A program made the translations under genes and the position numbers. Under the pieces are notes generated by a model. That model made no database searches, was not told the DNA's origin, and saw only the letters and a program-made list of their open reading frames with translations. DNA of 64,000 bases from the NCBI RefSeq assembly GCF_001426435.1, contig NZ_LMER01000020.1, positions 131,824-195,823 on the forward strand, given 5' to 3'. Below, one piece after another: positions 14,654 through 38,299 of this stretch (positions are counted from its first letter, which is position 1; every line of letters begins with the position of its first letter). This stretch comes from Angustibacter sp. Root456. GTDB taxonomy: Bacteria; Actinomycetota; Actinomycetes; Actinomycetales; Angustibacteraceae.

Positions 14654-15934
14654 GTGCACCTCATGGGCCTGCTGGCGGCGGTCGGGCAGCACGACGACCT
14701 GCTCCGCGCACCGGCGGCGGCTGGGGCCTCGGGCACCAACCTGCTCCCCTTCGCGGCCCTGACCGCCGGAGGCGTGCTGGTCGCCGGACTCGCCGCGCGC
14801 TTCGGGCGCCGCCGCCGCGACTTCGGCTCGTCGGCCGACCGCGCCACCTTCGAGACGCTGCACACGGCCTCGCTGGCCGGCCCGAGCTTCAGGGAGGGCC
14901 TCACCGAGTCGGGCGCGCAGCGCGCCGCCAGGCACCTGCGCGCCCTGCTGGGCACACCCGCGATCGCGCTCACCGACGCCGCGGGACGCTGCCTGGCCTG
15001 GGACGGCCTCGGCGCGCGGCACGCCGCTGACGCCCACGCCCACGCTGCGGGTGTGCTCGCCACCGGACGCTCGGCCGTGGTCTCCGGTGATGCCGTCGCG
15101 CCGGGCGCCACGGCCCGCTGCGACGACCTCACCTGCCCGCTGCGGGCCGTGGTGGTGGCCCCCGTGGTGAGCGGCGACACGGTCGTGGGGGCGCTGCTGG
15201 CGTACGGCGGCCTGCCCTCAGCGGGGCTCGTCCGGGCCACCGACGAGGTCGCGCGGTTCGTCTCGTCGCAAGTGGAGCTGGCCGAGGTCGACCGCTCCCG
15301 CACCCGCGCCATGGAGGCCGAGCTGCGGGCCCTGCGAGCCCAGATCAGCCCGCACTTCATCTACAACTCGCTCGCGGCGATCGCGTCCTTCGTGCGTACC
15401 GACCCCGAGCGCGCCCGCGAGCTGCTGCTGGAGTTCGCCGACTTCACGCGCTACGCCTTCCGGCGCGGAGGCGAGTTCACGACGCTGGCCGACGAGCTGT
15501 CGAACGTCGAGCGCTACCTGCGCCTGGAGAAGGCGCGCTTCGGCGAGCGGCTGCAGATCTCGCTGCTCGTCGCGCCCGAGGTGCTGTCGGTAGCGGTGCC
15601 GTTCCTCGTCGTCCAGCCGTTGGTGGAGAACGCCGTCCGGCACGGGCTCGAGGGACGCGTCGGCACGGGGCACGTCACCATCACCGCCGAGGACGCCGGC
15701 GCCGAGGCCCTGCTGGCCGTGGAGGACGACGGCGTCGGCTCCGACCCCGACGTCGTGCGCGCGGCCCTGTCGGGCGAGTCGTCGGCCGACTCGGTGGGCC
15801 TGGGCAACGTCGATGCCCGGCTGCGCCAGGTCTACGGCGACGCCCACGGGCTCGTCGTCGAGACGGCACCCGGCGCCGGCACCCGGGTCAGCTTCCGCGT
15901 GCCGAAGTACGCGCCGGGCGTCACGGCCCGCTGA
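14654..15934 (+). CDS. LytS-type sensor histidine kinase with GAF-like domain
   Basis: A 426-residue kinase with one N-terminal membrane helix (about residues 30-50), a GAF-like domain containing several Cys residues (CLAWDG, ARCDDLTCP), and a His_kinase/HATPase core. The phosphoacceptor His is in RAQISPHFIYNSL, the LytS/YehU signature; the N-box is PLVENAVRHG and the G-box is SVGLGNVDARL. The GTG at 14654 follows a TACTGT box by 7 bases. It is the natural partner of the LytTR regulator at 16472. Related LytS/LytTR pairs sense pyruvate or other carboxylates and control their importers, fitting the symporters downstream. The signal is not shown by sequence. Confidence 0.9.
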   Translation: MHLMGLLAAVGQHDDLLRAPAAAGASGTNLLPFAALTAGGVLVAGLAARFGRRRRDFGSSADRATFETLHTASLAGPSFREGLTESGAQRAARHLRALLGTPAIALTDAAGRCLAWDGLGARHAADAHAHAAGVLATGRSAVVSGDAVAPGATARCDDLTCPLRAVVVAPVVSGDTVVGALLAYGGLPSAGLVRATDEVARFVSSQVELAEVDRSRTRAMEAELRALRAQISPHFIYNSLAAIASFVRTDPERARELLLEFADFTRYAFRRGGEFTTLADELSNVERYLRLEKARFGERLQISLLVAPEVLSVAVPFLVVQPLVENAVRHGLEGRVGTGHVTITAEDAGAEALLAVEDDGVGSDPDVVRAALSGESSADSVGLGNVDARLRQVYGDAHGLVVETAPGAGTRVSFRVPKYAPGVTAR

Positions 15935-15947
15935 GCTGCGCCGGGCC

Positions 15948-16349
15948 CTAGGTCAGCATGAACCAGACGGCCTTGCCGCGCCCACGGCTCGGCGCCACTC
16001 CCCAGCGGTCGCTGATGACGTCGACGAGGTAGATGCCGCGGCCGGACTCGTCGTCCTCGGCCGCCTCGCGCGGCACCGGGGTGTGGTCGCTGCCGTCGGT
16101 GACGGCCACGCGCAGGCCCTGGGTGCCGTCGCACTCGACGTTCACCGTGATCGGCGGGGCCCCGTGCACGACGGCGTTCGTGACGAGCTCGCTGACGAGC
16201 AGCTCCGCCTCGTCCATGACCCGTGCGTGGTGCGTCTGGCACGACGTCTCACGCAGGAACTTGCGGGCAACACCCGGGGCCCGTTGGTCTACAGGCAGGG
16301 TGAGCTCAGCGGGCGGCGTCACGGAGCACATGCTCAGATCATCGGGCAT
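15948..16349 (-). CDS. RsbW-like ATP-binding protein
   Basis: A 133-residue stand-alone HATPase_c_2 domain: N-box ELLVSELVTNAVVHG, then VTDGSD and GRGIYLVDVISDRWG for the G-boxes. Family members are anti-sigma factors or kinases in partner-switching systems. It lies between the kinase and its regulator on the opposite strand. The frame is open upstream to 16484; I chose the ATG at 16349, although a second ATG at 16331 is equally possible. No STAS or sigma partner is adjacent. Confidence 0.8.
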   Translation of the reverse strand: MPDDLSMCSVTPPAELTLPVDQRAPGVARKFLRETSCQTHHARVMDEAELLVSELVTNAVVHGAPPITVNVECDGTQGLRVAVTDGSDHTPVPREAAEDDESGRGIYLVDVISDRWGVAPSRGRGKAVWFMLT

Positions 16350-16417
16350 TCGGGCCGATCCCGCTCGCTCGACGCGCTGGCCCGGCTCCCTGCCAACCAC
16401 CGCGGCCCACGATGACC

Positions 16418-16455
16418 GTGGTGGCCCCGCATCACCGGCGATGCGAGGGCACCAC
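16418..16455. promoter_or_regulatory. 38-bp imperfect palindrome before the LytTR gene
   Basis: An extended dyad (GTGGTG at one end, CACCAC at the other, GCATCACCGGCGATGC in the centre) ends 4 bases before the -10 element at 16460 and covers the -35 region, so it could be an operator. A 30/38 match occurs inside dnaX at 63847-63884. Confidence 0.5.
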
Positions 16456-16459
16456 GTCG

Positions 16460-16465
16460 TAGGCT
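16460..16465 (+). promoter_or_regulatory. -10 element of the LytTR regulator gene
   Basis: TAGGCT followed by six bases and then the ATG at 16472, consistent with a leaderless transcript. Confidence 0.5.
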
Positions 16466-16471
16466 CCGCGC

Positions 16472-17215
16472 ATGGCCGACGCACCGCCGCTCAGCGTGCT
16501 CGTCGTCGACGACGAGGAACCCGCGCTCGCCGAGCTCACCTACCTGCTCGGCCGCGACGAGCGGATCGGCCGGGTGGTCACCGCCAGCGGTGGCCCGCAG
16601 GCCCTGAAGGTGCTCGAGCAGGAGCCGGTCGACGTCGTCTTCTGCGACATCGCCATGCCCGGCCTCGACGGACTCGACCTCGCTCGCGTGCTGGCGCGGT
16701 TCGCCCGGCGACCCCAGGTCGTCTTCGTCACCGCCTACGACCAGCACGCCGTCGACGCCTTCGAGCTGCAGGCCACCGACTACGTCATGAAGCCGGTGCG
16801 CGCCGAACGGCTCAGCGAGGCGGTGCGGCGCGCCGTCGAGTCGAGGGACGGCGGCCCCGACACGGCCTCCGACGACGAGACCATCGCCGTCGAGCTGGGT
16901 GGCGTGACGCGGTTCGTGCAGCGCTCGCAGGTGCGGTACGTCGAGGCTCAGGGCGACTACGCGCGCCTGCACACGGCCACCGAGAGCCACCTCGTGCGCA
17001 TCCCGCTCGCTACGCTCGAAGAGCGTTGGGGCGCAGCCGGTTTCGTGCGCATCCACCGAAGCACCCTCGTCGCGTTGCGGCACGTCGACGAGGTGCGTTC
17101 GGACGCCGGGCGCTTCACCGTGCGGCTGGGCGACGACGAGCTCGTGGTGAGCCGGCGGCACACCCGCGAGCTGCGCGACCGGTTGATCCGCTCCGCGCGA
17201 CCGGGCCGGCCGTGA
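16472..17215 (+). CDS. LytTR-family response regulator
   Basis: A 247-residue regulator. The receiver domain (about 8-125) has the acidic pair in VVDDEEPA, the phosphoacceptor Asp in VFCDIAMPG, the Thr/Ala switch in FVTAYD and Lys in DYVMKPV. The LytTR DNA-binding domain (about 145-240) has the typical VRYVEAQGDYARLHT and FVRIHRSTLVAL. It pairs with the LytS-like kinase at 14654 and probably controls the symporter genes that follow, starting with the GTGA-overlapping gene at 17212. The start is supported by TAGGCT six bases upstream and by an adjoining palindrome that could be an operator. Confidence 0.94.
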   Translation: MADAPPLSVLVVDDEEPALAELTYLLGRDERIGRVVTASGGPQALKVLEQEPVDVVFCDIAMPGLDGLDLARVLARFARRPQVVFVTAYDQHAVDAFELQATDYVMKPVRAERLSEAVRRAVESRDGGPDTASDDETIAVELGGVTRFVQRSQVRYVEAQGDYARLHTATESHLVRIPLATLEERWGAAGFVRIHRSTLVALRHVDEVRSDAGRFTVRLGDDELVVSRRHTRELRDRLIRSARPGRP

Positions 17216-17613
17216 GCCAGCAGCGGGCCGGCGCCACGCCACCTGACCGGCCCCGGCGGGTGCGGGTCACCAGCCCGCTCATGGGTGCCGCGCGCCGCGT
17301 GCCGCACCGCCCGGCCACGCGCGAGATCGACGAGCAGACCGGTCTCGGCGAGGTCTACATGCGCTCGCTGCTGCGCAGCCAGCTGCGGCTCGCACTCAGC
17401 GTCCTGGCCGCCACTGCCGTGCTGATCGGCGGGCTGCCCGTGCTCTTCGTCGTCGCGCCCTCCGTCGCGCAGGCGCACCTCGTGGGCCTGCCGTTGCCCT
17501 GGCTGCTGCTCGGCGCGCTCGCCTACCCGATGCTCTGGCTCGCCGCGCGGTACTACGTGCGGCAGGCCGAACGGAACGAGGACGACTTCACCGACGTCCT
17601 CAAGCGACACTGA
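17212..17613 (+). CDS. Small two-TM membrane protein paired with SSS symporter
   Basis: A 133-residue protein: about 45 residues of basic cytoplasmic N terminus, then two membrane helices (about 58-80 and 90-112) and a short charged tail ending NEDDFTDVLKRH. The GTG overlaps the LytTR stop as GTGA, and the symporter gene follows after one base, so the three are almost certainly one operon. Size and position match the small subunits or DUF485-like partners often found beside sodium:solute symporters. It is a distinct protein from the DUF485 gene at 19525. Confidence 0.78.
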   Translation: MSQQRAGATPPDRPRRVRVTSPLMGAARRVPHRPATREIDEQTGLGEVYMRSLLRSQLRLALSVLAATAVLIGGLPVLFVVAPSVAQAHLVGLPLPWLLLGALAYPMLWLAARYYVRQAERNEDDFTDVLKRH

Positions 17614-17614
17614 C

Positions 17615-19381
17615 GTGGGACGCGACCCACAGCTCGCAGCGGTGGTGGCCGTCGTCCTGGTGACGGTCGCCACGATCGCGATCGGCTCGTACGGGCTGCG
17701 GTTGTCGCGCACCACGAGCGACTTCTACGTCGCCAGCCGCGCCGTGTCACCGCGCTGGAACGCCTCGGCGATCGGCGGTGAGTACCTGTCGGCGGCGAGC
17801 TTCCTCGGCGTCGCCGGGCTGGTGCTCGCCTCGGGCACCGACATGCTGTGGTTCCCCGTCGGCTACACCGCGGGCTACCTGGTGCTGCTGGTGCTCGTCG
17901 CCGCACCGCTGCGCCGCTCCGGCGCCTACACGCTGCCCGACTTCGCCGAGGCGCGGCTGGAGTCAGGGCGCGCACGGGTGGCGGCGTCCGTGCTGGTGGT
18001 GGGCATCGGCTGGCTCTACCTCGTGCCCCAGCTGCAGGGCGCCGGGATCGCGCTGCGGGCGGTCACCGGCGCCCCGACCTGGATGGGCGGCGCGCTCGTC
18101 GCCCTCGTCGTCGTGCTCAACGTCGTGGCCGGCGGCATGCGCTCGATCACGTTCGTGCAGGCGTTCCAGTACTGGCTGAAGCTCACGGCGATCGCCGTCC
18201 CCATGTTCTTCATCCTGCTGGTGTGGCAGTCGGCCGGCGCGCCCTCGCCCGCCGCGCCCGGCGCCCCGCGCGCGCAGGTCGACCTCACGACCACGCTCGC
18301 GCGCACGGTCACCATCACGTCCGACGTGGCCACGCAGGTCGTCGTCGACGGGCGGGTCGACGGCGGGGCCGTTCACGACGCGGTGCCCGTCGCGCCGCAG
18401 CAGCGGGTGCAGATCGCAGCGGGCAGCCGCGTCACCGTGCCGCAGGGCGAGGCCGTTCCGCGGCCGGTGGACGCCGCGGCGAGCGACGGCGAGAGCTGGC
18501 TGCGCCCGCTCAGCGGGGCGTCCGGGCGCTCGCACCCGGTGTACTCGACGTACTCCATCGTGCTGGCGCTGTTCTTCGGCACGATGGGCCTGCCGCACGT
18601 GCTCGTGCGCTTCTACACCAACCCGGACGGCCGCGCGGCGCGCCGCACGACCCTCACCGTGATCGCGCTGCTCGGCGCCTTCTACCTCTTCCCCCCGCTG
18701 TACGGCGCGCTCGGCCGCGTCTACGCCGGTGACCTGCTCATCAGCTCCCGCGCCGACACGGTGGTGCTGCTGCTGCCGAGCCGGGTCGTCCCAGGGCTCG
18801 GCGGGGAGCTGCTGAGCGCCCTCACCACGGCCGGCGCGTTCGCGGCGTTCCTGTCGACGTCGTCCGGCCTGGTGATGTCGGTATCCGGTGTGCTGCACCA
18901 GGACCTGCTGATCTGGCGACGGCGCACCGCACTGCGCCAGATGCCCGACACCATGCGCGGCTTCCGCAGCGCCACCCTCGTGTCGGTGTCCGTGCCCTTC
19001 GTGCTGTCGCTGTTCGCCGGTCGGCTCAGCCTCGCCGACACCGTGGGCCTGGCCTTCGCCGTCGCCGCCTCGACGTTCTGCCCCTTGCTGGTGCTCGGCA
19101 TCTGGTGGCGCCGGCTCACTCGGGCCGGCGCGCTCGCCGGGCTGGCGGTGGGCGGGGCGCTGGCGAGCGCGGCCGTGCTCGTCACCATGCTCACGGGCGT
19201 CCGGCAGGGCTGGGTGGGCTCGCTGCTGGCGCAGCCGGCAGCCTGGACCGTTCCGATCGCCTTCGCCGTCAGCGTGGGCGTGTCGTTGCTGACGCCTCGC
19301 ACCCTGCCGCCGCACGTCGCCCGCACCATGGTGCGCCTGCACACGCCCGAGGACGTCGACGTCGACCGTTCGTCGCGCTGA
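17615..19381 (+). CDS. Sodium:solute symporter, probable monocarboxylate importer
   Basis: A 588-residue SSS-family transporter with about 13 membrane segments. The N-terminal block TTSDFYVASRAVSPRWNASA followed by GEYLSAASFLG, and MGLPHVLVRFYT, are the same motifs as in ActP at 19902. An extra hydrophilic, extracytoplasmic-looking insert lies at about residues 215-305. Coupled by one base to the small membrane gene. Likely substrates are acetate, pyruvate or related acids, inferred from similarity to ActP/MctP and from the LytS/LytTR and acs context. A 143-bp gap follows before the second transporter operon. Confidence 0.87.
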   Translation: MGRDPQLAAVVAVVLVTVATIAIGSYGLRLSRTTSDFYVASRAVSPRWNASAIGGEYLSAASFLGVAGLVLASGTDMLWFPVGYTAGYLVLLVLVAAPLRRSGAYTLPDFAEARLESGRARVAASVLVVGIGWLYLVPQLQGAGIALRAVTGAPTWMGGALVALVVVLNVVAGGMRSITFVQAFQYWLKLTAIAVPMFFILLVWQSAGAPSPAAPGAPRAQVDLTTTLARTVTITSDVATQVVVDGRVDGGAVHDAVPVAPQQRVQIAAGSRVTVPQGEAVPRPVDAAASDGESWLRPLSGASGRSHPVYSTYSIVLALFFGTMGLPHVLVRFYTNPDGRAARRTTLTVIALLGAFYLFPPLYGALGRVYAGDLLISSRADTVVLLLPSRVVPGLGGELLSALTTAGAFAAFLSTSSGLVMSVSGVLHQDLLIWRRRTALRQMPDTMRGFRSATLVSVSVPFVLSLFAGRLSLADTVGLAFAVAASTFCPLLVLGIWWRRLTRAGALAGLAVGGALASAAVLVTMLTGVRQGWVGSLLAQPAAWTVPIAFAVSVGVSLLTPRTLPPHVARTMVRLHTPEDVDVDRSSR

Positions 19382-19484
19382 GGCCGCCACTCGGCGTACG
19401 TGAGCGCACCGCCGGACGCCGCAACGCACCGCCGAGCGACGAGCGGGCCCCTGACGCTTCCGGCCCCGCGGGCGGCGCGAGCAG

Positions 19485-19500
19485 AGTGACCGGCGTCACA
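19485..19500. promoter_or_regulatory. CRP/GlxR-type binding site before DUF485-actP
   Basis: AGTGA-N6-TCACA matches nine of the ten fixed positions of TGTGA-N6-TCACA. It lies 25 bases before the GTG of the DUF485 gene. Crp is encoded at 37622. Whether it activates or represses depends on the unmapped transcription start. Confidence 0.6.
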
Positions 19501-19524
19501 GCCGTCCCACCTGGGAGGACCCGC

Positions 19525-19902
19525 GTGAGCACCACCGACGAGATCCGGGGCGAAGACCCCGGAGGCACGGCCACCACCGGCTACATGCACGTGCAGGACC
19601 TGCCGGAGTTCGTGGCGCTGCGGCGCCGCTTCCGCCGCTTCGTGTTCCCCCTGACCGCCCTGTTCCTGGTCTGGTACTTCCTCTACGTCCTGCTCTCGAC
19701 GTACGCGCCGGAGTTCATGGCGCACAAGCTGGCGGGCAACATCACCACCGGCCTCGTCTTCGGCCTGCTGCAGTTCGTCTCGACGTTCGCGATCACGATG
19801 ATCTACGCCCGCTGGGCCGACCGCAGCTTCGACCCCGCCGCCGAGCACCTCGCCGAGCGCGTGCTCTCCCACCCCGGACACCGCCCTGACGGAGGCATCT
19901 GA
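19525..19902 (+). CDS. DUF485 family membrane protein
   Basis: A 125-residue two-helix membrane protein. The DUF485 core is FRRFVFPLTALFLVWYFLYV, followed by LSTYAPEFM and the second helix TTGLVFGLLQFVSTF, ending in a motif like MIYARWA. DUF485 genes sit directly before actP in many bacteria. GGAGG six bases before the GTG at 19525 selects the start. Its stop shares one base with the actP ATG (TGATG), so the two are translated together. The exact role of DUF485 in acetate uptake is not known. Confidence 0.92.
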   Translation: MSTTDEIRGEDPGGTATTGYMHVQDLPEFVALRRRFRRFVFPLTALFLVWYFLYVLLSTYAPEFMAHKLAGNITTGLVFGLLQFVSTFAITMIYARWADRSFDPAAEHLAERVLSHPGHRPDGGI

Positions 19903-21542
19903 TGAGCGCAGCCATGCAGGCCGCGGAGACCGTCGGCAGCCCCGGCGTCAACATCGCCATCTTCGCGGCCTTCGTGCTCGTGACGCTGGGCATCGTGTTC
20001 CGGGCCTCGCGCACCAACCGCACCACCGCCGACTACTACGCCGGTGGCCGCAACTTCACGGGGCCGCAGAACGGCATCGCGATCTCCGGCGACTACCTGT
20101 CGGCCGCGAGCTTCCTCGGCATCGCCGGCGCGATCGCCATCAACGGCTACGACGGCTTCCTGTACTCGATCGGCTTCCTCGTGGCCTGGCTCGTCGCGCT
20201 GCTCCTGGTGGCCGAGCTGCTGCGAAACACGGGCCGGTTCACCATGGCCGACGTCCTGTCGTTCCGGTTGCAGCAGAAGCCCGTCCGCACCGCGGCGGCC
20301 ATCACCACGCTCGTCGTGAGCTTCTTCTACCTGCTGGCGCAGATGGCCGGCGCGGGCGGTCTGGTCGCCCTGCTGCTCGGCGTCAACGGCAAGGTGGGGC
20401 AGAGCGTCGTCATCGCCGTCGTGGGCGTGCTCATGGTGCTGTACGTGCTGATCGGCGGCATGAAGGGCACCACCTGGGTGCAGATCGTCAAGGCCGTGCT
20501 GCTCGTCATCGGCGCCGGCATCATGACCCTGTGGGTGCTCGGCAAGTACGGGCTGAACCTGTCCGACCTGCTCGGCAAGGCGGTCGAGGGCAGCGCCAAG
20601 GGCGAGAGCATCCTCGGCCCGGGCGTGCAGTACGGCAAGAGCGACGCCACCAAGCTCGACTTCATCTCGCTGTCGCTCGCACTGGTGCTCGGCACGGCCG
20701 GGCTGCCGCACGTGCTGATGCGCTTCTACACGGTGCCCTCGGCGAAGGAGGCCCGCCGCAGCGTCGTGTGGGCCATCTGGATCATCGGCATCTTCTACCT
20801 GTTCACCCTCGTGCTCGGGTACGGCGCCGCCGCGCTCGTCGGGCCGAAGACCATCGCAGCCGCACCAGGAAAGGCCAACTCCGCCGCACCGCTGCTGGCC
20901 TACGAGCTAGGTGGCACGGTGCTGCTGGGCATCATCTCGGCGGTGGCGTTCGCGACGATCCTCGCGGTGGTCGCGGGACTCACCATCACCGCCAGCGCGT
21001 CCTTCGCCCACGACGTGTACACGAACGTCATCAAGGACGGGAACGTCACGGCTCAGCAGGAGGTGCGCGTCGCCCGCCGGACGGCGCTCGTCATCGGTGC
21101 GGTCGCCATCGTGGGCGGGATCTTCGCCAACGGGCAGAACATCGCGTTCCTCGTGGCCCTCGCGTTCGCCGTCGCGGCGAGCTCGAACCTGCCCACGATC
21201 CTGTACTCGCTGTTCTGGAAGCGGTTCAACACCCGCGGTGCCCTCTGGAGCATGTACGGCGGCCTGATCGTCTGCGTGACGCTGATCGTGTTCTCGCCCG
21301 TGGTGTCGGGCAAGCCGGCCGACCCGGTGACGGGCAAGAGCGCGTCGATGATCACCGACGCGTCGATCGACTTCCACTGGTTCCCGCTCGACAACCCGGG
21401 GCTGGTGTCGATCCCGCTGGCGTTCCTGCTGGGCTGGCTCGGCACGGTCACGAGCAAGGAGAGCTCGAGCCGGGAGAAGTTCGCCGAGATGGAGGTTCGC
21501 TCGCTCACGGGCGCCGGCGCCGAGAAGGCCGTCGTCCACTAA
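19902..21542 (+). CDS. actP: Cation/acetate symporter
   Basis: A 546-residue SSS-family symporter with about 13 membrane segments, bringing acetate and similar short acids in with Na+ or H+. Diagnostic stretches are TTADYYAGGRNFTGPQNG, GDYLSAASFLGIAGAI, GTAGLPHVLMRFYTVP and SASFAHDVYTNVI. The GGAGG at 19891-19895 and the TGATG overlap with DUF485 show coupling. Immediately downstream are a strong hairpin and acs, so uptake and activation of acetate are encoded side by side. A CRP-type site lies before the operon. Confidence 0.95.
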   Translation: MSAAMQAAETVGSPGVNIAIFAAFVLVTLGIVFRASRTNRTTADYYAGGRNFTGPQNGIAISGDYLSAASFLGIAGAIAINGYDGFLYSIGFLVAWLVALLLVAELLRNTGRFTMADVLSFRLQQKPVRTAAAITTLVVSFFYLLAQMAGAGGLVALLLGVNGKVGQSVVIAVVGVLMVLYVLIGGMKGTTWVQIVKAVLLVIGAGIMTLWVLGKYGLNLSDLLGKAVEGSAKGESILGPGVQYGKSDATKLDFISLSLALVLGTAGLPHVLMRFYTVPSAKEARRSVVWAIWIIGIFYLFTLVLGYGAAALVGPKTIAAAPGKANSAAPLLAYELGGTVLLGIISAVAFATILAVVAGLTITASASFAHDVYTNVIKDGNVTAQQEVRVARRTALVIGAVAIVGGIFANGQNIAFLVALAFAVAASSNLPTILYSLFWKRFNTRGALWSMYGGLIVCVTLIVFSPVVSGKPADPVTGKSASMITDASIDFHWFPLDNPGLVSIPLAFLLGWLGTVTSKESSSREKFAEMEVRSLTGAGAEKAVVH

Positions 21543-37621: not shown

Positions 37622-38299
37622 GTGGACGACGACATCGTGCGCAGCGCCCCGCTGTTCGCCGCACTCGACGAGGAGTCGGCCGCCTCATTGCGCCGCTCGA
37701 TGCTCGAGGTCAGCCTCGGCCGCTCGGAGGTCCTGTTCGCCGAGGGCGACCAGGGCGACCGGCTGTACGTCATCGTCGAAGGCAAGATCAAGCTCGGCCG
37801 CACGAGCAGTGACGGCCGGGAGAACCTCCTCGCGATCCTCGGCCCCGGGGAGATGTTCGGCGAGCTGAGCCTGTTCGACCCCGGTCCCCGCACGGCCACC
37901 GCGACCTCGGTGGGCGACACCCGACTCATCGGACTCGGCCACGACGCCTTGAAGCCGTGGCTGGTCCAGCACCCCGAGGTCGCGCTCACGCTGCTCAACG
38001 CCCTGGCCCGCCGGCTGCGCCGGACCAACGAGACGCTCGCCGACCTGGTGTTCTCCGACGTCCCCGGCCGCGTGGCCAAGGCGCTGCTCGACCTGTCGAC
38101 GCGCTTCGGCCGCCCCACCGACGACGGCATCCTGGTGGCCCACGAGCTCACGCAGGAGGAGCTCGCCCAGCTCGTCGGGGCGTCGCGCGAGACCGTCAAC
38201 AAGGCGCTCGCCGACTTCGCGACCCGGGGCTGGCTGCGGCTCGAGGCGCGCGCCGTCGTCCTCATGGACGTCGAGCGGCTGCGCCGCCGCGCGCGCTGA
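37622..38299 (+). CDS. crp: Crp/Fnr-family cAMP receptor regulator
   Basis: A 225-residue global regulator. The cyclic-nucleotide pocket is GEMFGELSLFDPGPRTATA (about 80-98), with the Glu, Arg and Thr that bind cAMP; the dimer helix follows, and the DNA-binding HTH is LTQEELAQLVGASRETVNKALADF (about 178-201) with the conserved RETVNK recognition helix. It closely resembles M. tuberculosis CRP (Rv3676) and Corynebacterium GlxR in length and motifs. AAGGAG seven bases before the GTG supports the start. Possible targets in this window are the actP operon and itself. Confidence 0.95.
   Translation: MDDDIVRSAPLFAALDEESAASLRRSMLEVSLGRSEVLFAEGDQGDRLYVIVEGKIKLGRTSSDGRENLLAILGPGEMFGELSLFDPGPRTATATSVGDTRLIGLGHDALKPWLVQHPEVALTLLNALARRLRRTNETLADLVFSDVPGRVAKALLDLSTRFGRPTDDGILVAHELTQEELAQLVGASRETVNKALADFATRGWLRLEARAVVLMDVERLRRRAR

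Follow-up and report, generated by a model that had tools for sequence, protein, structure and literature searches.

A conserved Crp-type site overlapping the predicted -10 element of a putatively LytTR-driven DUF485-actP promoter in Actinobacteria

Our comparison of actinobacterial loci suggests that the DUF485-actP operon encoded in the window (that is, the whole 64-kb stretch of DNA analysed here) has a composite promoter, which a LytTR-type response regulator (RR) would activate and which cAMP-Crp, placed on the -10 element and the start site (+1), would repress; we consider this reading probable. The comparison supports the Crp site, an upstream repeat array, the link of that array to the RR gene, a phase common to repeats and site, and the overlap of the site with the -10 element; from these we infer binding of Crp and of the RR, the transcription start and the sign of each regulator. 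The outcome would be a testable wiring for carbon control in actinobacteria, in which the two-component system switches monocarboxylate uptake on and cAMP switches it off, reversing the textbook arrangement of E. coli.

Genes around the site and the presumed regulators

The stop codon of the DUF485 gene overlaps the start of the ActP/MctC-type symporter gene (at 19902; Table 1), and the transported substrate is assumed, from the family, to be acetate, pyruvate or propionate. The pair is preceded by a single gene row (14654-19381) encoding the sensor histidine kinase, the LytTR regulator, a DUF485-like protein and a second sodium:solute symporter family (SSF) protein, for which a role as co-sensor may be speculated. 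The kinase exhibits a single apparent transmembrane segment and a weak GAF match, as opposed to BtsS and YpdA of E. coli, which are kinases of the 5TMR type. A PDB search with the RR yielded mainly receiver-domain matches, and among the best 60 matches listed none was informative on DNA contacts.

Table 1. Positions of genes and of observed or predicted promoter elements in the window
Feature	Position	Strand	Basis or remark
Sensor histidine kinase gene	14654..15934	+	His_kinase PF06580, GAF; start codon uncertain
LytTR response regulator (RR) gene	16472..17215	+	Response_reg and LytTR PF04397
DUF485-like gene of upstream transporter	17212..17613	+	PF04341, E 6.3e-6, slightly under the Pfam cut-off
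Second SSF gene	17615..19381	+	Domain search
LytTR repeat 1, ACCGTTCGTCG	19365..19375	+	Within 3' end of upstream SSF gene
LytTR repeat 2, GCCACTCGGCG	19386..19396	+	21 bp after repeat 1
Candidate LytTR repeat 3, ACCGCCGGACG	19408..19418	+	Chosen by eye
Candidate LytTR repeat 4, ACCGCCGAGCG	19428..19438	+	Chosen by eye
Predicted -10 hexamer CAGAGT	19482..19487	+	Phase to repeats, invariant A at 19483; shares 3 bases with left Crp half-site
Predicted Crp operator AGTGA-N6-TCACA	19485..19500	+	Predicted to span promoter positions from about -9 to +7
Predicted transcription start	19494..19495	+	Inside Crp site; derived from -10 position
Shine-Dalgarno GGGAGGA	19513..19519	+	Window sequence
DUF485 protein gene	19525..19902	+	PF04341, E 2.3e-35
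ActP/MctC-type sodium:solute symporter gene	19902..21542	+	PF00474, E 1.3e-98
crp, presumed regulator	37622..38299	+	Homology to M. tuberculosis CRP

The original prediction had rightly pointed out that Crp is encoded in the same window. It aligns with M. tuberculosis CRP almost from end to end (E 3.8e-82), and the recognition region of its helix-turn-helix (HTH) is identical except for L/I, i.e., a matching recognition helix is present in the genome, along with two class III cyclase genes. A search of the genome for cNMP-binding proteins with a C-terminal HTH found none besides Crp; a second cNMP-binding match occupies the C terminus of an open reading frame of 340 aa and leaves no space for a following HTH. 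For L017 and L018, the 340-aa protein with its C-terminal cyclic-nucleotide-binding domain is adjacent to a 1243-aa open frame with a match to a cyclase domain.

Conservation of the Crp-type site

The sequence AGTGACCGGCGTCACA, in which AGTGA and TCACA flank CCGGCG, differs by one mismatch from the Crp/GlxR operator palindrome TGTGA-N6-TCACA. Its letters and its coordinates, 19485-19500, had been given correctly in the original prediction, as had its location upstream of the operon; the distance to the GTG start codon of DUF485-actP is 24 nt and not 25 bp. Within the 64-kb window the Crp motif is not above chance (four matches with at most two mismatches, versus 12.6 expected from shuffles), and in DNA of 73% G+C content one may ask if the site is a fortuitous match. 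What makes the site convincing is its recurrence before this operon in further genomes, and not window statistics. In the whole 3.84-Mb genome, 21 sites with at most one mismatch stand against two for the reversed pattern. The deviation falls on an outermost base in 11 of these 21, with G or C in ten and A solely in the site before DUF485-actP.

We assembled 80 named actinobacterial loci around ActP, 81 with the window, and searched as much as 400 bp of the DNA preceding DUF485 in each. Allowing one mismatch, we found a Crp site in 25 of the 81, while 29 permuted control palindromes yielded 0.41 on average and three at most. The exact AGTGA-N6-TCACA, with the same deviant first A, recurs in 15 loci, the TGTGA form in two, and CGTGA or GGTGA forms in none of the 81. 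Loci were then sorted by tblastn as with or without an RR gene. Among relatives from the same order, the site (again with at most one mismatch) was present in 18 of 56, namely in 16/32 with the RR gene and in 2/24 without; since 16 of these 56 are genomes already contained in the discovery set, the counts outside that set are 9/21 and 1/19. The genomes are related and thus non-independent, and several upstream regions are similar, those of L116 and L210 being 92% identical. Conservation is also patchy, in that 53 of the 87 loci encoding an RR are without such a site in 400 bp, including that of G002 (L182), a genome of the same family. Recurrence before the same operon and in the same register across relatives nonetheless renders a chance match hardly credible, and we conclude that AGTGA-N6-TCACA before DUF485-actP is, judged from sequence and conservation, a genuine Crp operator which Crp is predicted to bind.

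Could the palindrome serve a different regulator whose site, GTGA-N6-TCAC, is similar? Crp binding is here a prediction, and the window sequence can likewise be read as the longer palindrome GTGAC-N4-GTCAC. Relatives, however, keep the Crp positions only, with the inner C and G varying, and Crp is the sole cNMP protein with a C-terminal HTH found in the genome, which makes another regulator quite improbable.

A LytTR-type repeat array linked to the response regulator gene

Inspection of the upstream regions of relatives revealed recurring copies of ACCGTTCGTCG or ACCGCTCGTCG, resembling ACCGYTCGTCG and spaced by about 21 bp. The repeat consensus was derived by eye from these relatives and then tested on the 80 named loci and the order relatives, with two copies 21 bp apart and at least 18 of 22 positions matching being demanded. 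Such repeats are present at 47 of the 55 loci with a LytTR RR gene nearby and at one of the 26 without, four of the latter (L077, L142, L129 and L145) having short or incomplete upstream DNA. Dinucleotide shuffles (50) gave a mean of 0.86 and a maximum of three, and the reverse strand gave 1/55. The spacing is likewise specific: 21 bp was seen at 47 loci and 20 bp at 22, with other spacings between 12 and 44 bp at 3 to 16. The repeats occur in 19 of 22 genera and, among order relatives, at 28/32 loci with the RR gene and 4/24 without (19/21 and 4/19 outside the discovery set). A strict pattern search across the whole genome was uninformative (71 forward matches versus 105 for the reversed control) because strings resembling CTCGTCG are common in this G+C-rich genome; judged by this genome on its own, the array does not stand out.

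LytTR sites have been described as repeats of 9-11 nt with spacers of 11-13 nt (PMC4847170) or, alternatively, as 9-bp repeats 10-13 bp apart (PMC11347149). Direct repeats are also found here, and their length of 11 nt combined with the period of 21 implies a 10-nt spacer. In the window, repeats 3 and 4 deviate from the consensus and the periods are 22 and 20; the start of candidate repeat 3 precedes the -10 hexamer by 74 bp, the same distance as in Micrococcaceae-type loci. In the latter, kinase and RR genes are divergent from DUF485 and about 200-340 bp off, so that the array lies between them and DUF485. We thus propose that the array is the predicted binding site of the LytTR regulator whose gene lies close by, which would provide a DNA target for the LytTR regulator beside DUF485-actP. 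A search of the open-licence literature found no paper naming a LytTR regulator together with a DUF485-actP-type operon.

Overlap of the Crp site with the predicted -10 element

In the 44 repeat-bearing loci in which no Crp site (one mismatch allowed) was seen, the motif TANNNT occurs most often at offset +95, counted from where the repeats start; it does so in 14 loci with 10 labels, against a mean of 0.28 per offset, and lesser maxima are at offsets 94, 116 and 96. Across all 75 repeat loci, phases 10-12 of the 21-bp period contain 27 of 31 TANNNT motifs, and phases 13-15 contain the starts of 29 of 45 Crp-like sites (at most two mismatches); the Crp site accordingly begins some 3 bp downstream of where the -10 element does.

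The flanking bases point to the same register. All 23 AGTGA-N6-TCACA sites (12 labels) at loci with the RR gene have an A at -2 before AGTGA, which is the sole invariant column outside the palindrome between -45 and +35; the mirror-image T on the right occurs in 9/23, and Crp sites in loci without the RR gene have the A in 1/9. The resulting N-A-N-A-G-T fits a -10 element from -12 to -7: the invariant A falls on -11, the A that mismatches the Crp consensus on -9 and the T on -7. In two members whose site begins with CGTGA, the hexamer reads TAACGT and TAGCGT, both of which are TANNNT. The overlap with the -10 element can thus account for the conserved deviation from the Crp consensus.

The hexamer is CAGAGT in the window, and CACAGT is its most frequent form in relatives. 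A -10 element was assigned at 67 of the 75 loci, and 22 of 26 Crp sites (at most one mismatch, between -60 and +40) are in the overlap register; of the remaining sites, two follow a second register, shifted upstream by 15 bp, and two lie elsewhere. With up to two mismatches, the overlap register has 26 sites and the second register 6. Since this assignment favours hexamers ending in AGT, the phase test over the 75 repeat loci is less biased. A scan of 19300-19560 for consensus sigma-70 promoters returned no promoter; the CAGAGT of the window is devoid of the first T, and there is no conserved -35 element.

A hairpin hiding the Shine-Dalgarno sequence was also considered and dropped, because the full palindrome would be absent from the RNA if transcription starts within the site.

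Sign of Crp control and proposed promoter logic

A consensus match by itself cannot give the sign of Crp control. Repression appears likelier than activation, because the Crp site coincides with the predicted -10/+1 of a promoter that is probably LytTR-driven. Its centre would be located at about -1 to -2, and not at the positions typical of CRP-activated promoters of class I and II (centres at about -41.5, -61.5, -71.5 and so forth). The CRP sites of E. coli acs-yjcH-actP are found near -70 and -122. In M. tuberculosis, repression has been associated with CRP sites close to the transcription start and activation with upstream ones (PMC4117774), and in C. glutamicum cAMP-GlxR is described as a repressor of genes of uptake and metabolism, e.g., ptsI-ptsG and citH (PMC7026483).

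In the proposed logic, the LytTR RR from the upstream operon would bind the tandem array and drive transcription of DUF485-actP, acting from about -56 to -87 and, in the group to which the window belongs, from a greater distance, with transcription beginning at about 19494-19495. Crp-cAMP, spanning about -9 to +7, would exclude RNA polymerase, and high cAMP may therefore repress uptake despite an active two-component system. The original prediction had deemed cAMP control of the operon likely. Crp control is borne out by the conserved site, the M. tuberculosis-like Crp and the two cyclase genes; the prediction named no sign and missed the LytTR array, and it now seems that repression is the likelier sign and that the main switch is probably the LytTR system.

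Alternatively, Crp might activate, as CRP does at E. coli acs-yjcH-actP, either because transcription starts further downstream or because Crp assists the LytTR regulator. There are precedents: Crp activates acs-yjcH-actP according to PMC3014970, and E. coli btsT is described as depending on CRP as well as on the LytTR system BtsSR (PMC7730263). Moreover, at four loci (L048, L195, L095 and L042) the centre of the Crp site lies 65.5 to 72.5 bp upstream of the TANNNT-based start, which is an activating position, with no RR gene having been found in L195 and L095 and with L042 and L048 being short loci. For the window itself, however, the 24 nt between site and start codon include the Shine-Dalgarno sequence and hence offer no space for a downstream promoter, and the phase together with the invariant A puts the -10 element on the Crp site. 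We thus regard activation as rather unlikely.

It is tempting to speculate beyond the composite promoter of the window, and on balance we would give equal credence to and against the following generalization: a conserved actinobacterial module may exist in which one half of the Crp site also serves as the -10 element of a promoter driven by LytTR, with cAMP-Crp and RNA polymerase then competing for shared bases, and in which the cAMP logic is the inverse of that of E. coli acs-yjcH-actP. Some lineages without LytTR would then have Crp back at the activating position of about -66 to -73, and the deviation from the consensus would represent the price of the -10 element rather than decay.

Comparison with known systems

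The E. coli acs-yjcH-actP operon is similar in that CRP controls a DUF485(YjcH)-ActP operon (PMC3014970); it differs in that CRP activates there, while here the site is on the predicted -10/+1, a LytTR system is adjacent and the operon contains no acs. The BtsS/BtsR-btsT and YpdA/YpdB-yhjX systems of E. coli share the principle that LytTR tandem-repeat sites drive a monocarboxylate transporter (PMC5552118, PMC4847170), and btsT also shares CRP as the second regulator beside the LytTR system (PMC7730263). Unlike btsT and yhjX, the transporter is of the SSF type here and of the CstA or MFS type there, the spacer is 10 nt, and the Crp site is on the -10 element.

Operators of M. tuberculosis CRP near the start (frdA type) belong to the same Crp family, with start-occluding sites being reported as repressive; a LytTR array is not part of that description (PMC4117774). 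C. glutamicum mctBC encodes a homologous DUF485-SSF pair. The analogy to GlxR control of acetate genes in corynebacteria, drawn in the original prediction, is loose, as the 2009 table entry for mctB-mctC gives RamA and RamB as regulators and no GlxR (PMC2807442).

Variant arrangements in relatives

At six loci (L070, L071, L190, L191, L192 and L204) the second register is realized such that the right half CACA of a Crp-like site, followed by GT, constitutes the -10 hexamer CACAGT. In a Kocuria locus (L134), AGTGA-N6-TCACA stands 24 bp ahead of DUF485, just as it does in the window, with neither an RR gene nearby nor an A at -2. Two Amycolatopsis loci (L075 and L093) exhibit a symmetric variant, TGTGG-N6-CCACA, over a -10 element TACTGT in the same register.
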